DNA of 64,000 nt, from the NCBI GenBank assembly GCA_032334055.1, contig JAUOZS010000001.1, positions 3,310,001 through 3,374,000 on the forward strand, written 5' to 3'. Positions 12,196-20,925 of this stretch are shown piece after piece (within the stretch, counting starts at the first letter, position 1; each line of letters opens with the position of its first letter). A model generated the notes under the pieces. The model was given only the letters and a program-made list of their open reading frames with translations. It was not told the origin of the DNA and ran no database searches. Both the position numbers and the translations under genes were made by a program. This DNA comes from Selenomonadales bacterium 4137-cl (GTDB lineage Bacteria > Bacillota > Negativicutes > Sporomusales > UBA7701).

Positions 12196-12218
12196 CAAAA
12201 AAGGGCGCGTCAGCGCCC
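12196..12218 (-). terminator. Terminator after the ACT-domain gene
   Basis: On the minus strand GGGCGC TGAC GCGCCC is followed by TTTTTTG, 22 bases past the ACT gene stop. It ends the larA-paaK-ACT transcript. Confidence 0.88.
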
Positions 12219-12240: not shown

Positions 12241-12672
12241 CTACCAGTAGAAGTTGGGACCCTCGCCGCCGTCGGCAACCTTGTCGCCGTTCATTACCTG
12301 TTCGGCCTTGGCGAGGTCGTCGACCTTCAGCACCACCCGCGCCTCCTCGGCGGCCGGGGCGGCGAAAGCGTAGACATACTCGATGTTGATGCCGGCGGCG
12401 GTAAGTTTTTGGACTTCCGCCAACAGGCCGCCAGGCTTGTCGGAAACCCGCATGGCCAGCACAGGCGTCGTTTTGACGGCGAGGCCCGCGCCTTTGAGCG
12501 CCTGCTCCACTAGGTCGGGCTCGTTGACCACCAGCCTCAGGATGCCGAAATCGGCGGTGTCGGCCACCGACATGGCCCGGAGATTGATGTTGTGCTCACC
12601 CAGCACGGACAGGACTTGCGCCAGCGTCCCCGGCCGATTTTCAAGAAAAACCGAGATTTGCTTGATAATCAT
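12241..12672 (-). CDS. Tandem ACT-domain protein
   Basis: 143 residues made of two ACT domains, about 1-68 and 70-135. Each begins with the ligand-loop pattern: ENRPGTLAQVLSVL and DKPGGLLAEVQKL. Such proteins bind amino acids and are very often encoded next to phenylacetate-CoA ligase, as here (16 bases after it), where they may act as an aromatic amino-acid sensor for the ligase. The start has GGAGGAG 9 bases upstream. Confidence 0.9.
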   Translation of the reverse strand: MIIKQISVFLENRPGTLAQVLSVLGEHNINLRAMSVADTADFGILRLVVNEPDLVEQALKGAGLAVKTTPVLAMRVSDKPGGLLAEVQKLTAAGINIEYVYAFAAPAAEEARVVLKVDDLAKAEQVMNGDKVADGGEGPNFYW

Positions 12673-12688
12673 GCTTGTCGCTCCTCCT

Positions 12689-13987
12689 TTACAGTTTGCG
12701 GTTGTCGATTACCCGTTTGGCCTTGCCTTCACTGCGCTCAATGCTTTTCGGGCCCACCAGCCGAACCTGGGCCGACACGCCGAGCACGCTGCCCAGGGCG
12801 GCTTCGATCTTGTGTTCCAGCGTTTCCAGCCGGCGCACCTCGTCGGAGAACATCGCCTCGGTGACTTCGACGAGAACGGTAAGTTTGTCGAGATTGTCCT
12901 CGCGGTCGACGATGAGCTGATAGTGGGGCGAGGTTTCGCCCAGGCCTAGGAGCACCGTCTCCACTTGGGAAGGGAATACGTTTACGCCCCGGATGATGAG
13001 CATGTCGTCGCTGCGGCCGAGCACCTTGCCCATGCGGACGAGCGTGCGGCCGCAGGCGCACGGTTCGTGGGTGAGTACGGTGAGGTCGCGGGTGCGGTAG
13101 CGGATCATGGGCATGCCTTCCTTGGTGATAGTGGTCAGGACCAGTTCGCCCTTTTCACCGTCCGGCAGCGTTTCGCCGGTCTGCGGGTTGATTATTTCAG
13201 GGTAGAAGTGATCTTCGTTGATGTGCAACCCGTCCTGGCACTCGCACTCGCTGGCGACGCCCGGCCCGATGATCTCGCTGAGGCCGTAGATGTCGATAGC
13301 CTTGATCGAAAGCCGCGCCTCGATCTCCTTACGCATGCGCTCCGACCACGGCTCGGCGCCGAAAACCCCGGCGCGGAGAGAGAGGTCCTTGGGCTCGAGG
13401 CCCATTTCGCCGAGCGTTTCGGCGATATACAGGGCGTAGGACGGGGTGCAGGCCAGCAGTGTGGTGCCGAAGTCCTTCATGAGCATTATCTGGCGGGCGG
13501 TGTTGCCGCTGGAAACGGGGATGACCGACGCGCCGACCAGTTCGGCGCCGTAGTGGGCGCCGAGGCCGCCGGTGAAGAGGCCGTAGCCGTAGGCCACCTG
13601 GATGAAGGATTGCCGGTTGGCGCCGGCCGCGGTGAGAGTACGCGCCATGACCTCCGCCCAGATGCCGATGTCGCGCTTGGTGTAGCCGACGACCGTCGGT
13701 TTGCCGGTGGTGCCGCTGGAGGCGTGGATGCGAACTATTTCGGCGAGCGGAACGGCGAATAGGCCGTACGGATAGTTGTCGCGCATGTCCTGCTTGGTGG
13801 TGAACGGCAGTTTCCCGATGTGTTCGAGGCTGGCGATGTCCTCGGGCAGCAGACCGGCCGCCTGCATGCGGCTGCGGTAGAAGGGCACCTGGCGGTAGGC
13901 CCTTTCGATGGTGTCGCGCAGCCTGGCCGCCTGCACGGCTGACAGTTCGGTACGGACCATGGTTTCTATCGGTTTATTCCAAAACAA
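12689..13987 (-). CDS. paaK: Phenylacetate-CoA ligase
   Basis: 432 residues, the normal PaaK length. The AMP-binding motif [16 protein letters not shown] (about 88-103), the YGLSE motif and the C-terminal lysine region match the adenylate-forming family. It activates phenylacetate or another aryl acid with ATP and CoA. In anaerobes it is usually tied to aromatic amino-acid fermentation. It starts with TTG at 13987, with GGAGGG 6 bases upstream. It lies 32 bases after the LarA-type gene with no terminator between, so both are probably one transcript. Confidence 0.93.
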
Positions 13988-14019
13988 TTAAATCCCTCCT
14001 GCTTATTGGTTGAGCGGCT

Positions 14020-15312
14020 TCACCCGGCCGGCAGCGGCAGAGTGTCAGCGGCGTGTGGCATGACGGTGACGGTGTAGCCGCCGCGCCCCAGCCGGGCCTC
14101 GGCAAGCGCCAGGGCGACGTCGAAGTCGTCCGCTGGCGTCATGCCCGCTTTTTCGATGAAAGCCCTGTTTTCGGGCAGAGTAACGATTATGTGTTGGATG
14201 CGCCGGGCGTCGAGGCCGGTTTTTAAGGCCACGTAACCCGGCACGGTAAATCGTTCTCTGAGGGCCTGCTCCCGCTCAATTAGCGTGGGAATGTCGAACC
14301 AGCCGCTAAAATCGGGCGGTTCGGCGATATTGCGGCATTCCATGAAGGCGATGACAACGCCGCCCTCCTTACAGGCCGCCAGCGCGTTCTCGGTAGCTTT
14401 GGTGGCCTGGTAGAAGTTGATGTCCTTGGGATAGCCCCCCGCCGAGGCGATTACAAGGTCGGTCCGCTCGCGGACAGGAGCGCCGTAAATAGCGGCCACC
14501 CGTCGGCAGCCCTCTTCCCACGCCTCGCGCCAATGGCCGGCTACAAAGCCGGCGATGCCGCCCCCGGGCGCGGAAATGACGTTGAGCAGGAAGGCGGGAG
14601 CGAGCATGGCGGCTATTTCCGTCTGATCCTCGTGCAGCGGGTTGCCGGCCAGCCGGCCGCTGCCGCACAGGGGATTGACGCCGCCGCCGGGAGTCTCGCT
14701 CAGGCAGAAGCGGTGATTGGCCTGAATGGCGGCGTAGCTGGCGACCCCCGGAACGATGCTTTTCCGGCCGCCGGCAAAACCGGCCATGGGGTGGTAGGCG
14801 ATGCCGCCGGTGAGGATGACCTTGTCGGCGGCGGCGACGTGGCGGCTGATTTCGGCCGCCACTCCCCGGGAGGTTGTGCCGAGACGGACGAAGTCGGCCC
14901 CGTCGCTGGCAAAGCTTTGTTCGATACGGACGCGGCCAACCACTTCCCGGCCGTAGGTCGCGGCGTTTTCCTCAGGGGTATGGCGGCGGTGGGCGCCCAA
15001 CGCGACGACGAGGGTGATGTCGTCGTCGGGGACACCGGCGGCGTTGAGTTCGTCCAGCAGCGCGGGCAGGAAAAGGTCGTGGCGCAGCCCGCTGCGGGTC
15101 ATGTCGCTGGCGACGACGGCCACGCGGTCGCCGGCCGCCACGACCTCGCCGAGAGGCGGCGCGCCGATGGGGCTGGCAAATGCCAGGCGCACAGCGGCGG
15201 CCACGTCGTCGACCGCTGGCGTCGGCCTGCCGTCGACCAGCTGGATTTGCCGCGCGGCCGGCAGCGAGATCACTGCCGCACCGTTACCGAACGGGAGGGA
15301 GAATTCCGTCAT
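14020..15312 (-). CDS. larA: LarA family nickel-dependent racemase
   Basis: 430 residues, the usual LarA length. The residues that build the active site and hold the nickel pincer cofactor in Lactobacillus LarA fall at identical positions: H108, H174, K184 and H200 (GAHRRH, YHPMAGFAGGRK, QANH). Lactate is the classical substrate, but many LarA homologues racemise or epimerise other 2-hydroxy acids. The ATG at 15312 has AGGAG 10 bases upstream. LarB/C/E cofactor genes are not in the window. It is preceded by a riboswitch and followed by paaK and an ACT gene. Confidence 0.92.
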   Translation of the reverse strand: MTEFSLPFGNGAAVISLPAARQIQLVDGRPTPAVDDVAAAVRLAFASPIGAPPLGEVVAAGDRVAVVASDMTRSGLRHDLFLPALLDELNAAGVPDDDITLVVALGAHRRHTPEENAATYGREVVGRVRIEQSFASDGADFVRLGTTSRGVAAEISRHVAAADKVILTGGIAYHPMAGFAGGRKSIVPGVASYAAIQANHRFCLSETPGGGVNPLCGSGRLAGNPLHEDQTEIAAMLAPAFLLNVISAPGGGIAGFVAGHWREAWEEGCRRVAAIYGAPVRERTDLVIASAGGYPKDINFYQATKATENALAACKEGGVVIAFMECRNIAEPPDFSGWFDIPTLIEREQALRERFTVPGYVALKTGLDARRIQHIIVTLPENRAFIEKAGMTPADDFDVALALAEARLGRGGYTVTVMPHAADTLPLPAG

Positions 15313-15340
15313 AAGCGCTACACTCCTGAGTTGAGAGAAT

Positions 15341-15387
15341 AGAAAAACCCCAGGGGAAATTTCCGCGTGGAACTTTCCGCTGGGGTT
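15341..15387 (-). terminator. Riboswitch-controlled terminator before larA
   Basis: On the minus strand AACCCCAG (15380-15387) pairs with CTGGGGTT (15346-15353), followed by TTTTTCT. The 5' arm is also the 3' part of the aptamer (GTGGG...CCCCAGCGG), so folding of the aptamer would prevent this hairpin. That predicts ligand turns the operon on. Confidence 0.75.
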
Positions 15388-15477
15388 TTTTGTACCCACG
15401 GTGTCGACCCTGACACAGGGTCTTGCGCCGCTCGGACCTGGCGCCGCCGCAGCGGCCGGAACCCTAGGCGCACTTCC
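15369..15477 (-). ncRNA. ykkC-class riboswitch aptamer (subtype 2-like)
   Basis: The minus strand carries the ykkC signature in order: GAAGTGCGCCTAGGGTTCCG, a GCCGC/GCGGC stem, CCAGGTCCGAGCGGCGCAAG, a GACCC/GGGTC stem, ACACCGTGGG, an A-rich loop and CCCCAGCGG. GGAA at the 5' end pairs with TTCC at the 3' end. The CCGAGCGG form of the second block fits the subtype 2 aptamers (ppGpp or PRPP) better than guanidine-I, which usually has CCGAGAG. The ligand cannot be decided by eye. Confidence 0.8.
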
Positions 15478-15515
15478 ATCAAGCCGTTGTATACATTATA
15501 CATGTGTTCCATTAT

Positions 15516-15544
15516 AGTATAAGTTTTCAAGCCGGGACCGTCAA
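15516..15544 (-). promoter_or_regulatory. Promoter of the riboswitch-larA operon
   Basis: TTGACG (15539-15544), a 17-bp spacer and TATACT (15516-15521) on the minus strand. The expected start is near 15509, about 30 bases before the aptamer. It begins 30 bases past the ppk stop. Confidence 0.75.
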
Positions 15545-15573: not shown

Positions 15574-17667
15574 CTATATGTTGCGGCGGTAAGCCGGCCT
15601 CAACCGTTTTTCGAGCGGCAGTTCTTCCCGCAGCGCGGCCTGGTGCGCCTGCTGAAGGAATTCGGCCTGGCAGCTCAGGGGCCTGGCTCGCTTGTCGGCG
15701 CGGCGGTAATTGCCGTCGTTCCTCATGGTGTACGCCTTCTGGTTGTCCTGCAGCATGAGGTCGAGGATGCTCCTGATGCGTTCTATGTGGGCGGGGGAAT
15801 CCACCGGGAAAAGCAACTCCACCCGCTCGCCAAGGTTTCGGGTCATCCAGTCGGCGCTAGACAGGAATACGCGCTCGTCGCCGCCGTTGGCAAACATGAA
15901 TATCCGGCTGTGCTCTAGGAACCGGCCGACGATGCTCCGTACGGTGATGGTTTCGCTGACGCCGGGGATGCCGGGCTTGAGCTGGCAGATGCCGCGCACG
16001 ATCAGGTCGATCTTGACGCCGGCGTGCGACGCTTCGTAGAGCTTGCGGACAATTTCCTTGTCGACGAGGGAATTGATCTTGGCCACAATGCGGGCTGGTT
16101 TGCCGGCGCGGGCGAAGCTTATTTCGCGGTCGATCAGTTCGTAAAATTTCTGCCGGAGACTGATGGGCGCCACGGCAAATTTATTCCACACCGGCGGGTC
16201 GGAGTAACCGGAGATGACGTTGAAAAAGGCTGAGGCGTCGGCGCCGACCTGGTCGTTGGCCGTGAACAACCCCAGATCGGTGTACAGCCTCGCGGTGACG
16301 TCGTTGTAGTTGCCTGTGCCCAAATGCACGTAGCGTTTGATGCCTGAGGTCTCTTTTCTTACCACCAGGGCAATCTTGGCGTGGGTCTTCAGGCCGACGA
16401 GGCCGTAGATGACGTGGCAGCCAGCCTCTTCTAGCCGGCGGGCCCAGAGGATGTTGTTTTCTTCGTCGAAGCGCGCTTTGAGCTCGACCAGCACTGTCAC
16501 CTGCTTGCCGTTCTCGGCCGCCTGGGCCAGGGCGGCGACGATGGGGGAGTCGCCGCCAACCCGGTAGAGGGTCTGTTTTATCGCCAACACCTGGGGGTCG
16601 ACGGACGCCCGGCGGATGAACTCCACCACGGGAGCAAACGATTCGTAGGGGTGGTGAAGGAGGATGTCGCGCTCGCGGATGGCGGCGAAAAGGTCTTCTT
16701 CGCCGATAAGGTCGGCGGGTTCGGCGGGGGTGAACGGCTCGTAGCGCATGCGGCTGCACCCGGGAAGGTCGGCAAACCGCATGAAATAACTGGTGTCGAT
16801 CGGGCCGCGGATTTCAAACACGTCCTGTTCGCCGATCTTAAGGCTGTCGACGAGGAACTCCCTAAGCGTGCGACTGGCCGTCCGGGCAATTTCCAGGCGT
16901 ACCGTCTGGCCGCGCTTGCGCTGGCGGAGCGACTTCTGGACTTCGACGAGGAGATCGTCGGCTTCTTCCTCGTCGATGTCGAGGTCGGCGTTGCGGGTGA
17001 TGCGGAACGGGGTGACGTCCTTGACGGTGTAGCCGTGGAACAGTTCGCCGCAGTAGGCTTTGATGATTTCCTCGAGAAAAACGAACCGCCGTTTCCGGCC
17101 GTTCACCGGGGTCTCGACTATCCTGGGCAATACGCTCGGCACCTGGATGACGGCCGTCTTGGCCTCGCCGTCCTGGCGGAGTTCGACCGCCAGGTTAAGG
17201 CTGCGGTTGAGCAGAAACGGGAAGGGGTGGCTGGAATCGACGGCCAGCGGCGTAAGAACTGGATAGATGGTGTTGTGGAAGTAGCGCTCCGTCCAGGCGC
17301 GGTTCTTCTCGGGCAGTTCGTCTATGGTGGCGAAGAAGATGTCCTCCTTCTCCATCTCCCGCCGCAGAACCTGCAGGTAGTTGTATTTCTTTTTGACCAG
17401 CTCTCTGGTTGCCAGCGATATCTGACGCAGTTGTTCCTCGACCGTCAGGCCGGCCGGGTCGTGTTTGTTTATTCCGTTTTCGAGTTGCCGCCGGAGGCCG
17501 GCCACGCGGATCATATAGAATTCGTCGAGGTTCGAGCCGGTGATGCCGATAAAGCGGACCCTTTCGAGGAGAGGGTTGCGCTTGTCCTGAGCCTCACGCA
17601 GAACGCGCAGGTTGAACTTCAACCAACTCAGTTCGCGGTTGAGGAAATATTCGGGATTATCGAACAC
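15574..17667 (-). CDS. ppk: Polyphosphate kinase 1
   Basis: 697 residues with the PPK1 domain order. The N-terminal domain starts FLNRELSWLKFN. The head domain and two phospholipase-D-like C-terminal domains follow, with the catalytic histidine in GLKTHAKIALV and the second His in YVHLGTGNYN. It makes polyphosphate from ATP reversibly. Start: GTG at 17667 with GGGAGGAG 6 bases upstream. This overlaps the end of the Ppx-like gene by 11 bases, indicating translational coupling. A longer in-frame start at 17709 lies within that gene and has no ribosome site. Confidence 0.96.
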   Translation of the reverse strand: MFDNPEYFLNRELSWLKFNLRVLREAQDKRNPLLERVRFIGITGSNLDEFYMIRVAGLRRQLENGINKHDPAGLTVEEQLRQISLATRELVKKKYNYLQVLRREMEKEDIFFATIDELPEKNRAWTERYFHNTIYPVLTPLAVDSSHPFPFLLNRSLNLAVELRQDGEAKTAVIQVPSVLPRIVETPVNGRKRRFVFLEEIIKAYCGELFHGYTVKDVTPFRITRNADLDIDEEEADDLLVEVQKSLRQRKRGQTVRLEIARTASRTLREFLVDSLKIGEQDVFEIRGPIDTSYFMRFADLPGCSRMRYEPFTPAEPADLIGEEDLFAAIRERDILLHHPYESFAPVVEFIRRASVDPQVLAIKQTLYRVGGDSPIVAALAQAAENGKQVTVLVELKARFDEENNILWARRLEEAGCHVIYGLVGLKTHAKIALVVRKETSGIKRYVHLGTGNYNDVTARLYTDLGLFTANDQVGADASAFFNVISGYSDPPVWNKFAVAPISLRQKFYELIDREISFARAGKPARIVAKINSLVDKEIVRKLYEASHAGVKIDLIVRGICQLKPGIPGVSETITVRSIVGRFLEHSRIFMFANGGDERVFLSSADWMTRNLGERVELLFPVDSPAHIERIRSILDLMLQDNQKAYTMRNDGNYRRADKRARPLSCQAEFLQQAHQAALREELPLEKRLRPAYRRNI

Positions 17668-19210
17668 CGCGTTCTCCTCCCTTTCGCACCAGGATCGGCC
17701 TGATGCCAAACACGTTCTCGAAGAATTCGGCCTTGTCGATGAAGGTCCACTCTTCCAGGGAAATGTCCTGTTCGGCGGAAACGGTGATGCTGACTTCTTC
17801 GCCGCACAGGGATATGTCGTGGACCGTCGCTTTCTGCATGTGGCTGCGGTCGACCGCGTCGGCCATTCTGATGATGGCCGCGAGTTTGGCCAGCGTTATG
17901 CGCTGTTCGGGCGCAAGGGCGGCGAAGTTGGCGTCGCTGAGGGATGGCGTCCCTTTGGAATGATAATAGGCGATATTGGCAATAAGCGCCCGCTCCTCCT
18001 CGGAGAAGCCGATGATATCCGAGGAGATGATTAGCCGGTAGGAGTAGAAATAGTGCCGCCGCAGGCTGACGTATTTGCCGATGTCGTGGAGGATAGCCGC
18101 GATTTTGAGCAGCAGGCGTTCACGTTTGCCAAGTCCGTGGTGCCTGACCATGCGGTCGAACAACAGCAGCGAGGTGTTTTCCACGCTGGCGGCGTGCCTG
18201 GCGTCGTGCATGTATTTGCGGCCAAGCGTATGCGCGAAACTGACGACCTGCCTTTCGACGACTTCCAGCCACTTGTCGCCGGCCTTGTCGGCGATATGGG
18301 AAATGGTGATGCCGTCGCCGAACTGAGCGCCGGATACAACGATCTGGGCGACGTTGCTCAGGTTGACTATCTGCTTGTAGAGAACGATAGTGGGCAGAAC
18401 CATCTCCGCCCGGCTCTCCGAGAGGTCGAAGGCCTGCATGAGCTGAGGGAGGTTAAGCTGTTTGACCCGGTCGTAAAGGGCGAGAAATTCGTCGGCGCCG
18501 ACATAGGATAGTTTGGCGGCTTCGTCCCGGCCCAGCATTTTGAGCAGCAGGCCGGTTTCGACCCCTGACAGCACGAGGTATTTGATCTTATGCTGGTTGA
18601 GTTCTATTTCGACAAGGTCGATAGTGCTGTAGATATACTCGGTGAGCGCCTGGTAAAAATGAGCCGAGTCGCGCTGGTACTTTTCGAAGCTTTCCTTGAT
18701 GCGCAGTGCGCCGATATGGATATTCTGCTGGTACTGAAGCACTCCGGCCTTATACAGTGTGAAGGAAAGTCCGCCGGAGGATATATCGACGAACAGGATG
18801 CCCTCCTGCTCGGCGGTCAGACCCTCGGCTTCGATGGCGCGAAAAAGGGCGATGTATTTGTGGTACATCTCCTGGAGCATATCGACGACTTCCAGGGTCA
18901 GACCTGTTTTCAGCCTGATCTGGTCGATGATGTATTGCTGGTTGTCCGCTTCGCGGATGGCGGTGGTGGCCAGCAGCCGGTAATCCTTGACGCCATATTC
19001 CTGGAGAATGCGCCGGTAGCCTTTGAGCAGCTCGCAAAGCCCCCTGACGGTGGCGAAGCTGACCCTGCCTGTTTTGAAGGTTTCTTCGCCGAGTGTGACC
19101 TGGGAACTGGCCCGCTCGACGATCCTCATATCCGCCAGGGAAGTGTATTCCACTATCTGCAGGCTGACCTGCTCCGAACCGACGTGCATGACGCCGAAAA
19201 AATTAGACAT
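17657..19210 (-). CDS. Ppx/GppA-HD paralogue with degenerate nucleotide-binding motifs
   Basis: 517 residues. It has the Ppx/GppA fold (about 1-300) followed by an HD domain (HDIGKY near 370). The motifs that hold phosphate differ from active enzymes. At 9-14 it reads HVGSEQ instead of DxGSNS, and later DISSGGLSF instead of DLGGGSTEL. The acidic residue of the first motif is therefore missing. It may be a regulatory or altered-specificity protein rather than an exopolyphosphatase. The HD metal residues look intact. It is coupled to ppk by overlap and is divergent from a canonical paralogue 176 bases away. Confidence 0.85.
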   Translation of the reverse strand: MSNFFGVMHVGSEQVSLQIVEYTSLADMRIVERASSQVTLGEETFKTGRVSFATVRGLCELLKGYRRILQEYGVKDYRLLATTAIREADNQQYIIDQIRLKTGLTLEVVDMLQEMYHKYIALFRAIEAEGLTAEQEGILFVDISSGGLSFTLYKAGVLQYQQNIHIGALRIKESFEKYQRDSAHFYQALTEYIYSTIDLVEIELNQHKIKYLVLSGVETGLLLKMLGRDEAAKLSYVGADEFLALYDRVKQLNLPQLMQAFDLSESRAEMVLPTIVLYKQIVNLSNVAQIVVSGAQFGDGITISHIADKAGDKWLEVVERQVVSFAHTLGRKYMHDARHAASVENTSLLLFDRMVRHHGLGKRERLLLKIAAILHDIGKYVSLRRHYFYSYRLIISSDIIGFSEEERALIANIAYYHSKGTPSLSDANFAALAPEQRITLAKLAAIIRMADAVDRSHMQKATVHDISLCGEEVSITVSAEQDISLEEWTFIDKAEFFENVFGIRPILVRKGGERGVR

Positions 19211-19386
19211 GTTGTTGCCTCCAAAAACTTATTTTATAAATTTTCGGATGATAGTGGCCGAAATCCTTTTTCCTGGCTGAAGGTTATGTTAATTTAATGT
19301 AAAGTCAGCTGGAGCGAATTTGTTTTTCCCTGAGCGGCAAGGTTTTTGCAAAAAAAGCCGAATACTATGGTGGGGAGTGATAGATA

Positions 19387-20925
19387 ATGACGGAAAGAAT
19401 CGCCATCATCGACCTCGGGTCGAACTCCGCCCGCCTTATCGTAATGCATATCTACGCCAACGGCGCCTATAACCTCGTCTATCATCAGAAGGAAACTGTG
19501 CGGCTCAGCGAGGGCATGGGCAAGTCGCATACCATCCGCCCGGACGCGGTCAAGCTGGCAGTCGAGACGATGCGGACATTCGCCCATATGTGCCTGCTGT
19601 TCAATGTGGACAAGACTTTGGCCGTGGCTACGGCCGCGGTGAGGAGCGCCAAGAACGGCCCGATGCTCGTGGAACTGATCGAGTCGGAAACGGGTATTCG
19701 TCTCGAATCGATTACCGGGCATGCCGAAGCGCATATCGGTTACATAGGGGTCATCAACACAATTGATGTCGATGACGCCGTCGTTTTCGACCTGGGCGGC
19801 GGCAGCACCGAACTGACGCTGATCCGCGGCCGTGAACCCAAGAAGGTCGCCAGTCTGCCCTTCGGCGCCGTCAACCTGACCGAACAGTTCGCCACCCAGG
19901 ACCGGATCACCGATTTGCAGTTGGAAAAGCTCCGCAGCTATATTATGCACCATCTGGAAAAAAACCCGTGGCTAAAGGATGCCGGCCTGCCGCTCGTGGG
20001 CGTGGGCGGCACGGCCCGCAATATCGCCAAGATGGACCAGAAACGGAAGAATTACCCTTTCAACAAGGTCCACAATTACCGCCTCGGCGATATATCCATG
20101 ACCGATCTTTGGCGGGGCCTGACGATGGCCGATTACAAGCAACGGCTCAAGATTCCCGGACTGAGCGGCGAGCGGGCCGATATAATTGTGGCCGGCTCCA
20201 CCATCGTCAAGTGCCTGTTTGACTATACCCGCGCCAACAGGCTGATTGTAAGCGGCTGCGGCTTGCGGGAAGGCCTCTTCCTTCGCCACTATCGCACCCG
20301 CGCCGGCCAGCCTGAGGTGATCGAGAACATTCTCCTGCACAGCACGAATAATATGCTGCTGTTCTATAAGGGCAACGCCCCGCACGCTTACCATGTCGCC
20401 GCGCTGGCTGAAGCCATGTTCGACGGCTGGCAAGACCTGCACAAGCTCGACGACCGGGACCGCCTTCTCATGAGGGTGGCGGCCCTGCTTCACGATATCG
20501 GTATAACGATCAATTACTACGATCACCAGCGTCATAGCGCCTATCTGGTGGAGAATGCCCGCCTGTTCGGCCTGACCCACCGCGAGCAGATGCTGACTGC
20601 GGTGGTGGCGGGGTGGCATGAGGGCGCGACTGCCAAGTACATGCGCAACCGCTTGTATACTGAGTTTCTCGACGACACTGACTGGCAGAAGGCCCGGAAG
20701 TTGGCGCTGCTGCTGGCGCTGGCCGAAAGCCTCGATACGACCCAGATGGGAGTTGTTACGCAGGTGAAGGCCAGCCTGAGGCCCAAGACCGCTCACCTGC
20801 TGATGACGGTGGGCGGGCAGGGGGCGGCGATCGAGATTCAGGAAGCGGAGCGACACCGCAAATGGTTCAAAAAGGAGTTCGGCGTCGAAATCGCCTGGCA
20901 GCAAACTCCGGCCGCGTATCGCTAG
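19387..20925 (+). CDS. ppx: Exopolyphosphatase / pppGpp phosphatase with HD domain
   Basis: 512 residues. The canonical ASKHA phosphate motifs are present: DLGSNS (9-14) and FDLGGGSTEL (about 137-146). The C-terminal HD domain has LLHDIGI near residue 362 and is typical of Ppx. It should release phosphate from polyphosphate and/or convert pppGpp to ppGpp; the two activities cannot be separated by sequence. GGGGAGTG precedes the ATG. It leads an operon with a terpene synthase and a thioesterase. The 176-bp divergent gap toward the ppk operon holds promoters I could not place with confidence. Confidence 0.93.
   Translation: MTERIAIIDLGSNSARLIVMHIYANGAYNLVYHQKETVRLSEGMGKSHTIRPDAVKLAVETMRTFAHMCLLFNVDKTLAVATAAVRSAKNGPMLVELIESETGIRLESITGHAEAHIGYIGVINTIDVDDAVVFDLGGGSTELTLIRGREPKKVASLPFGAVNLTEQFATQDRITDLQLEKLRSYIMHHLEKNPWLKDAGLPLVGVGGTARNIAKMDQKRKNYPFNKVHNYRLGDISMTDLWRGLTMADYKQRLKIPGLSGERADIIVAGSTIVKCLFDYTRANRLIVSGCGLREGLFLRHYRTRAGQPEVIENILLHSTNNMLLFYKGNAPHAYHVAALAEAMFDGWQDLHKLDDRDRLLMRVAALLHDIGITINYYDHQRHSAYLVENARLFGLTHREQMLTAVVAGWHEGATAKYMRNRLYTEFLDDTDWQKARKLALLLALAESLDTTQMGVVTQVKASLRPKTAHLLMTVGGQGAAIEIQEAERHRKWFKKEFGVEIAWQQTPAAYR

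Follow-up and report, generated by a model that had tools for sequence, protein, structure and literature searches.

What does a cell sense when it decides whether to transcribe an operon made of a LarA-type racemase gene, a paaK-like ligase gene and a gene for an ACT-domain protein, and for which of the three is the sensing done? The question is raised by a 64,000-nucleotide stretch of the genome of Selenomonadales bacterium 4137-cl (the window, in what follows), where an RNA of the ykkC class lies on the minus strand at 15366-15480, between a promoter and larA, just as the original prediction had placed a riboswitch. We understand this leader as a ykkC subtype-2a riboswitch for the alarmone (p)ppGpp (guanosine tetra- or pentaphosphate), probably working as a transcriptional ON switch, and we give this reading a probability of about 0.78. 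The class of the aptamer, its ppGpp-type signature, the overlapping terminator, the layout of the operon and the conservation with paaK are all drawn from sequence, and the mechanism they describe is ordinary and the targets are new: a known class of riboswitch, here an ON switch of ppGpp type, set before larA, paaK and the ACT gene.

The leader RNA and its ligand class

A significant covariance-model match was what the original prediction had staked its case on, and one was obtained, though under the curated threshold of Rfam: RF00442 matches 15478-15375 (minus strand) with 59.7 bits and an E value of 2.7e-10 for the 401 bases searched, and no other Rfam family falls below E 1 at the aptamer. 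A model built from 56 RNAs of relatives, none belonging to the clade described below, finds nothing at E<=10 in the window but the aptamer (80.5 bits, E 2.3e-20). Positions 15480-15366 are predicted to fold into a four-way junction of P0, P1, P2 and P3. The folding energy of the aptamer, taken alone, is unremarkable (z -1.5, with 15 of 200 shuffled sequences equally good). Among the relatives, 7 of 27 pairs have both partners substituted, a count above all of 500 shuffles, in a test that the kinship of the sequences weakens; P2 is partly misregistered (76.7% of its cells paired). The seven pairs all lie in P1, P1b and P2, while P0 and P3 have none.

The genome of the window holds four RF00442-type RNAs at E<=1, all under the gathering score, which are placed before larA, before an NCS2-like permease gene, before a glutamate-synthase-like cluster and between ilvB and ilvN-ilvC (names given partly by eye). 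Across the order, 128 matches to RF00442 at E<=1e-3 were found in 27 of 28 genomes. According to the genes that come next, they divide into 28 ilv/leu, 24 glt, 4 liv, 26 purine, 6 HAD-Nudix, 14 paaK, 4 larA-paaK, 3 MFS-larA (MFS being a transporter family) and 7 unassigned RNAs; the other 12 were called guanidine by their GAGAG motif. One representative per main gene cluster was checked by NCBIfam for PaaK, LarA, MFS, HAD-Nudix, livK, sugar kinase, purC, purE, ilvC, ilvN, ilvB, leuA, leuC and livH, and the parts of glutamate synthase as well as ACT were checked by Pfam; the permease representative had no NCBIfam match at 1e-40, and permease, EmrE, purF/L and leuD were named from their translations by eye.

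In a FastTree phylogeny built without the guanidine RNAs, the window RNA groups with its 17 nearest relatives in a single clade (support 0.98), nested within the ilv/leu/glt/liv group (support 0.77) and apart from the purine and HAD-Nudix groups. The subtype marker, the base at the A46/C49 position, whose meaning is set out in the relevant part of PMC6031431, is C in the window RNA and in all 18 members of the clade; together with the P0 helix and the model scores of the relatives, it bears out the proposal that the RNA belongs to subtype 2 rather than to guanidine-I. Two ligands of that subtype, ppGpp and phosphoribosyl pyrophosphate (PRPP), had been left side by side at the outset, of which the first agrees with the scores, with a spacer and with the base at position 96, and the second does not. 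With a model trained on the 56 ilv/leu/glt/liv RNAs (ppGpp context) the window RNA reaches its 80.5 bits, against 53.1 bits, 27 bits worse, with one trained on the 26 purine RNAs (PRPP context), and the 18 clade RNAs all do better with the former (75.2-89.1 against 42.2-58.6 bits). Of the controls, themselves part of the training sets, four pur RNAs score 120.7-137.8 bits with their own model and 61.8-65.4 with the ppGpp-context model, and nine ilv RNAs 105.5-119.6 bits with the ppGpp-context model and 53.0-64.1 with the purine-context one; the two HAD-Nudix loci scored, out of six, give 32.6-36.8 bits with both.

The spacer from xCGG to GU, counted without an alignment, measures 3 nucleotides (nt) in 18 of 18 clade RNAs and in 53 of 53 parsed ppGpp-context RNAs (three of the 56 were not parsed), against 4 nt in 26 of 26 purine-context RNAs. 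This count is preferred to the alignment columns diagnostic for the groups, as four of these seven columns sit in the 3' tail and may stem from one 1-nt shift. CACCGU is present in 17 of the 18 clade RNAs and in all 56 ppGpp-context RNAs, and in none of the 26 of purine context. The base that we take to be position 96 of the T. mathranii aptamer, by our own mapping, is A throughout the clade and G in every purine RNA; G is also found there in 21 of the 24 glt RNAs, so that position 96 alone does not separate the groups. The change G96A has been published as one that turns a PRPP aptamer into a ppGpp-preferring aptamer (in the mutational part of PMC6031431). The leader thus displays the set of features expected of subtype 2a, namely a pyrimidine at C49, an added P0, no conserved G96 and closeness to the RNAs of amino-acid genes.

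That the switch turns genes on was deduced at the outset from an overlap between aptamer and terminator, and the predicted folds sustain this deduction. The intrinsic terminator, a hairpin followed by a run of U (~15341-15389, minus strand), uses the 3' strands of P3 and P0, and when the leader is folded down to 15335 it is predicted in place of the aptamer (z -3.2, none of 200 shuffles as good). A hairpin lying over the 3' part of the aptamer and followed by a U-rich run is predicted in all 18 clade leaders, in folds computed with no shuffled control for each leader, and in 16 of them it takes the CCC strand of P3 as well as the P0 strand. Aptamer and terminator being mutually exclusive in these models, binding of the ligand should favour readthrough, and antitermination is indeed the mechanism described for ppGpp riboswitches in the part of PMC10687018 devoted to it.

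A further tie to the amino-acid genes stands in the gap between promoter and aptamer, where the palindrome TGTATACA (15488-15495, minus strand) is a candidate operator that ilv/leu leaders of the order would share. Looked for in the 100 nt upstream, GTATAC is present in 4 of 4 larA-paaK, 10 of 14 paaK, 3 of 3 MFS-larA and 23 of 28 ilv/leu leaders. The corresponding counts are 2 of 24 for glt, 1 of 4 for liv and 2 of 7 for unassigned leaders, and zero for 26 pur, 12 guanidine and 6 HAD-Nudix leaders, for a background of 0.025 per 100 nt in the fetched DNA; related genomes are included more than once in these counts. As the motif is common to larA, paaK and ilv/leu leaders, these operons seem to have one DNA-binding regulator in common, of which TGTATACA is probably the operator.

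Several points weigh against the assignment to ppGpp. The RF00442 score lies below the curated gathering score of 63, so that a plain Rfam annotation would miss the aptamer, and a search of the whole window at gathering threshold lists nothing there. The labels ppGpp and PRPP stand for gene context and not for binding data, and the models compared are unequal in length and in depth of training. Among 29 wider relatives from the phylum, discussed below, one (L205) precedes purE, and one or two (L188, L200) stand with unrelated-looking genes. The predicted hairpin leaves P3 paired in one genome (G010) and takes the P3 strand only in part in another (G023). Finally, the clade RNAs carry an additional base ahead of GCGG, compared with most RNAs of ppGpp context: the stretch from GGGT to GCGG has one length in 18 of 18 clade RNAs, 46 of 53 parsed ppGpp-context RNAs having 6 nt from the loop (values of 9 nt for three clade RNAs in the spacer parse are due to a longer run of A). 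This extra base, taken with the invariant A96, makes it possible that the clade has a private ligand.

The RNA would then be a subtype-2 riboswitch that diverged from the ppGpp type, with an undescribed ligand of its own, either a different nucleotide or some paaK-pathway metabolite. A tight clade tied to one gene family is what such a history could leave, and single substitutions do shift specificity in the ykkC fold, as reported in the same part of PMC6031431. We nevertheless deem it improbable: within the order two liv RNAs and some glt RNAs have the same extra base, as have ilvE, livK and natA-like leaders in other families, CCCNAGCGG is also present in liv, glt and ilv leaders, the A at position 96 is the very base that makes a PRPP aptamer prefer ppGpp, and both the GTATAC palindrome and the neighbouring genes tie the clade RNA to ilv/leu genes. 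PRPP itself (subtype 2b) is a very improbable ligand. The two aptamers differ little, and the 53.1 bits obtained with the purine-context model are still significant, but model scores, tree and 3-nt spacer all speak against it, as do the missing G96 and the presence of CACCGU; the operon, moreover, has no purine gene, and a separate PRPP-type RNA stands elsewhere in the genome before a permease that reads as NCS2. Subtype 2c, which responds to (deoxy)nucleoside diphosphates, (d)NDP, is ruled out by the tree, where the six HAD-Nudix RNAs form a clade apart (support 1.0). As for guanidine-I, it is the best Rfam name, RF00442 being the sole family with E below 1, and it can be dismissed, with a C instead of an A at the marker (the A in 12 of 12 guanidine RNAs of the order is by construction, this group having been picked by its GAGAG motif), a P0 helix, a score under the gathering threshold and no guanidine gene in the operon.

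The genes behind the switch

Upstream of larA the elements follow in the order first claimed, from a sigma-70-type promoter match (TTGACG-17-TATACT at 15544-15516, 10 of 12 consensus bases, a consensus match only) through the aptamer (15480-15366) and the overlapping terminator (~15389-15341) to AGGAG, the likely ribosome-binding site (15323-15327), and the ATG at 15312. The larA (14020-15312), paaK (12689-13987) and ACT (12241-12672) genes are co-directional on the minus strand with short gaps; in keeping with the operon free of internal terminators that had been described, the terminator scan found no minus-strand match between them, and a terminator-like hairpin 3' of the ACT gene (12203-12218) is the probable end of the operon.

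The first gene is not that of a lactate racemase but of a 2-hydroxyacid racemase of the LarAH10 family, dependent on the nickel-pincer nucleotide (NPN): it scores 589.6 bits with NCBIfam model NF052525, whose cut-off is 540. The residues H108, H174, K184 and H200, in the numbering of the catalytic residues of LarA, are present in all seven RNA-linked LarAs, that of the window included; the copy of genome G022 has S instead of N directly before H200. A larC homologue scoring over its cut-off is found in the window's genome (G000), which holds seven LarAH10-type genes at E<=1e-100, with a ykkC-class RNA within 8 kb upstream only of the copy discussed here. The second gene encodes an AMP-forming acyl-CoA ligase by TIGR02155 and Pfam; its TIGR02155 (PaaK) score of 605.8 bits lies below the equivalog cut-off of 646.3, and on this evidence the protein is a close PaaK homologue whose substrate is not fixed by the family score. 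The third gene specifies an ACT domain-pair protein (PF19571 ACT_8, 94.4 bits), likely an amino-acid-binding regulator. Directly beside the operon, at 15574-20925, lie a polyphosphate kinase gene and two Ppx/GppA-like genes; ppk and the first Ppx-like gene hold the same place in all five genomes of the window's genus.

The clade RNA stands directly before paaK in 14 of its 18 loci and before larA-paaK in four, all of the latter in the window's genus, which means that paaK carries the clade switch in 18 of the 28 genomes searched in the order, four times via larA. At the 14 direct loci the ACT gene after paaK is a called open reading frame in 12, was recovered by tblastn in G023 and is not called in G019; nine of the 14 have a second ppGpp-type RNA with ilvN and/or ilvC 2-3 kb further on. 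A strict pattern of the clade RNA, which would miss diverged members, was run over 84,980 genomes and picked out 14 stretches (five from Sporomusa, three from Selenomonadales metagenome-assembled genomes (MAGs), one from a Negativicutes MAG and five from Bacillota MAGs). All lead into paaK, 12 directly and two through larA; 13 were already in the order set, one (L223) is new, and the exact pattern occurs nowhere else. With the clade model, 398 genomes of the phylum yielded 30 loci, of which only the window's own has paaK in stretches of at most 1,500 nt; the other 29 have mostly ilvE/ilvD/ilvB, livK or natA-like ABC genes downstream (many named by eye), and (p)ppGpp binding has been reported for an ilvE and a natA riboswitch (PMC12373219, in the part concerned). 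Judged by these layouts, paaK is the conserved target of the clade switch and larA an addition. The idea that the switch controls larA, paaK and the ACT gene together finds support in the layouts of the relatives and can be kept, provided that the conserved partner is understood to be paaK, mostly with ACT, and that larA joins it only in the window's genus.

How firmly does larA belong to the response? It lies between the RNA and paaK in G000, G022, G024 and G025, at one and the same site, with ppk to one side and a molybdopterin oxidoreductase gene to the other. G023, the fifth genome of the genus, retains between RNA and paaK a remnant that matches larA (76% over 100 nt, E 1e-14), so that the gene was formerly there and has since decayed; a LarA on contig C4 of G023, tried as the missing orthologue, is only 46% identical to that of the window and was rejected. 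At three loci (G020:C4, G021:C4 and G026:C19), a separate ppGpp-type RNA precedes an MFS transporter gene and a LarAH10 gene. These RNAs score 90.4-92.4 bits with the ppGpp-context model and 54.9-71.3 with the purine-context one, and an overlapping hairpin is predicted in two of the three leaders, the first U-run of G026 being too far downstream to tell. They form a clade (support 0.72, two unassigned RNAs included) apart from the larA-paaK RNAs, and because of this the link between riboswitch and LarA seems to have arisen twice.

Against a close bond with larA stand its absence from 14 of the 18 clade loci and its decay in G023, and also the genes listed outside the window's genome in the 398-genome sample, where no such RNA was found before any of 45 LarAH10 genes, up to 6 kb upstream (a distance chosen because a 1,500-nt flank is too little for the MFS-larA layout; four of the 45 stretches are shorter at contig ends). 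Within the order, too, the link is rare: 7 of 77 LarAH10 genes have a ykkC-class RNA within 8 kb upstream. One may therefore ask whether the switch serves paaK and ACT, larA being a passenger with no role in the response, as would fit a switch that mostly stands directly before paaK, and the survival of RNA, paaK and ACT in G023, where larA is decayed. We regard this as rather unlikely, though worth keeping in mind, since larA is intact with its catalytic residues in four of the five genomes of the genus, and since a different ppGpp-type RNA precedes MFS-larA elsewhere.

The survey also brought to light neighbouring uses of these RNAs. At L140 (577-3060; G007:C167) a ppGpp-type RNA stands before lyase-like and TRAP-transporter-like genes (named by eye), a context absent from the portions of the literature examined. 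At L171, L178 and four further loci, in six genomes altogether, RNAs of a distinct subtype-2 group stand before a HAD hydrolase gene, which agrees with class 2c, the (d)NDP riboswitches; a single representative was scanned, and its HAD gene is fused to Nudix. In the window's genus, L163 (3601-3710, minus strand; G025:C3:7994-8103) is a ykkC-type RNA (RF00442, 45.3 bits) with a pyrimidine at the subtype marker and, by eye, a terminator-like sequence, directly before an anti-phage operon resembling CBASS (cyclic-oligonucleotide-based anti-phage signalling system), with a CD-NTase (332 bits in PADLOC) and a patatin phospholipase effector (304 bits). Of 398 genomes of the phylum, one has a homologue of the CD-NTase at E<=1e-25, and the leader has no plasmid match. 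It would be unusual for a defence system that signals by nucleotides to be governed by a switch that senses them; this is one case only.

What the enzymes might do

In the scheme that we propose, the nascent RNA would, with no ligand at hand, fold the terminator at ~15389-15341, and transcription would end before larA. Amino-acid shortage would raise (p)ppGpp, and the alarmone would bind between P0 and P3, keeping CCC (P3) and UUCC (P0) within the aptamer so that the terminator could not close. Antitermination would then yield larA, paaK and the ACT gene as one transcript ending near 12203. Ligand binding, readthrough and cotranscription of the three genes are steps that we infer from the leader and its relatives. 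The scheme suggests that enzymes as yet little understood are called up in amino-acid shortage. With paaK under the switch in 18 of 28 genomes, in nine of them beside a second switch and ilv genes, the comparison points to amino-acid supply, and not the breakdown of phenylacetate, as a role of the ligase.

Going one step further, one may suppose that the LarAH10 enzyme converts 2-hydroxy acids between their D and L forms, that a carboxylic acid on its way to becoming a 2-oxo acid is activated by the PaaK-like ligase, and that feedback comes from the ACT protein. Racemase, ligase and sensor might in this way form a supply route turned on by the alarmone during the stringent response, along which both forms of acids such as 2-hydroxyisocaproate or phenyllactate, together with branched or aryl carboxylic acids, would be brought to 2-oxo acids and then to amino acids. 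If true, this would give LarAH10 enzymes a physiological role, and the LarAH10 enzyme of Megasphaera acts on 16 hydroxy acids, among them the 2-hydroxy analogues of valine, leucine, phenylalanine and tyrosine (PMC11770544 and PMC7583248, in the passages on substrates). We consider the route doubtful. An iorA-type gene is present in the genome (571 bits, under the cut-off of 650.9) and adjoins neither paaK copy, the Megasphaera enzyme is about a hundredfold more efficient on D-gluconate and D-mannonate than on phenyllactate or branched 2-hydroxy acids (PMC11770544, same passages), and the MFS gene that stands before larA in G021 has the D-galactonate transporter family as its best match, under the cut-off.

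The same observations lead to another conception, in which LarA would act on sugar acids of the gluconate or mannonate type, or on some other hydroxy acid, and the alarmone would control carbon supply and not amino-acid synthesis. The sugar-kinase gene that follows paaK-ACT at three loci (G011, G015 and G016) could be understood in this way, and D-gluconate is the substrate that the authors themselves propose for the Megasphaera enzyme (PMC11770544, in that part), the native substrates of the LarAH10 group being unsettled. Against it, LarAH52 and LarAH66 act on hydrophobic or small 2-hydroxy acids, an activity that the same source thinks may be promiscuous, and the ilv/leu neighbours with their common GTATAC palindrome point to amino acids. 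We hold sugar acids to be a possible answer, if on the unlikely side; amino-acid precursors and sugar acids are both candidate products of the two enzymes.

Comparison with known systems

Sherlock and colleagues are said to have described the subtype 2a ppGpp riboswitch and its gene associations in PNAS in 2018. In the literature searched, which does not cover these gene associations and was judged from listings and the opening lines of abstracts, no published link of a ppGpp-type or ykkC riboswitch to LarA or PaaK enzymes was found, in agreement with the original prediction, which knew of none to LarA nickel enzymes or phenylacetate-CoA ligase. The LarAH10 and hydrophobic 2-hydroxyacid racemases of PMC7583248 and PMC11770544 resemble the window copy in the equivalog score over its cut-off and in the active-site residues kept; the difference is that the substrate of the window copy is not fixed, and the word riboswitch is absent from the main text of both papers.

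Among riboswitches, guanidine-I (RF00442) has the core fold and most conserved blocks in common with the window RNA, which differs by the C in place of A at the guanidine-binding position, by the added P0 and by its score below the gathering threshold. The PRPP riboswitch of subtype 2b (PMC5912903, in its relevant part) is alike in fold, expression platform and ON logic, whereas those RNAs of the order that are of PRPP type have kept G96, show a 3' spacer of 4 nt and are followed by purine genes. The nearest system is the ppGpp riboswitch of subtype 2a, as depicted in the corresponding parts of PMC7266159, PMC5912903, PMC6031431 and PMC10687018: the four-way junction with P0, the pyrimidine at C49, the absence of G96, a terminator over the 3' half of the aptamer and the expected ON logic are the same. 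The window clade departs from it by the extra base before GCGG and by A96 throughout, and the window RNA by its place before larA-paaK-ACT, where those parts of the literature have genes for branched-chain amino acids, glutamate synthase or natA. The reach of ppGpp-type riboswitches would thereby be extended to two enzyme types, with a physiological handle on the racemases of the LarAH10 group.

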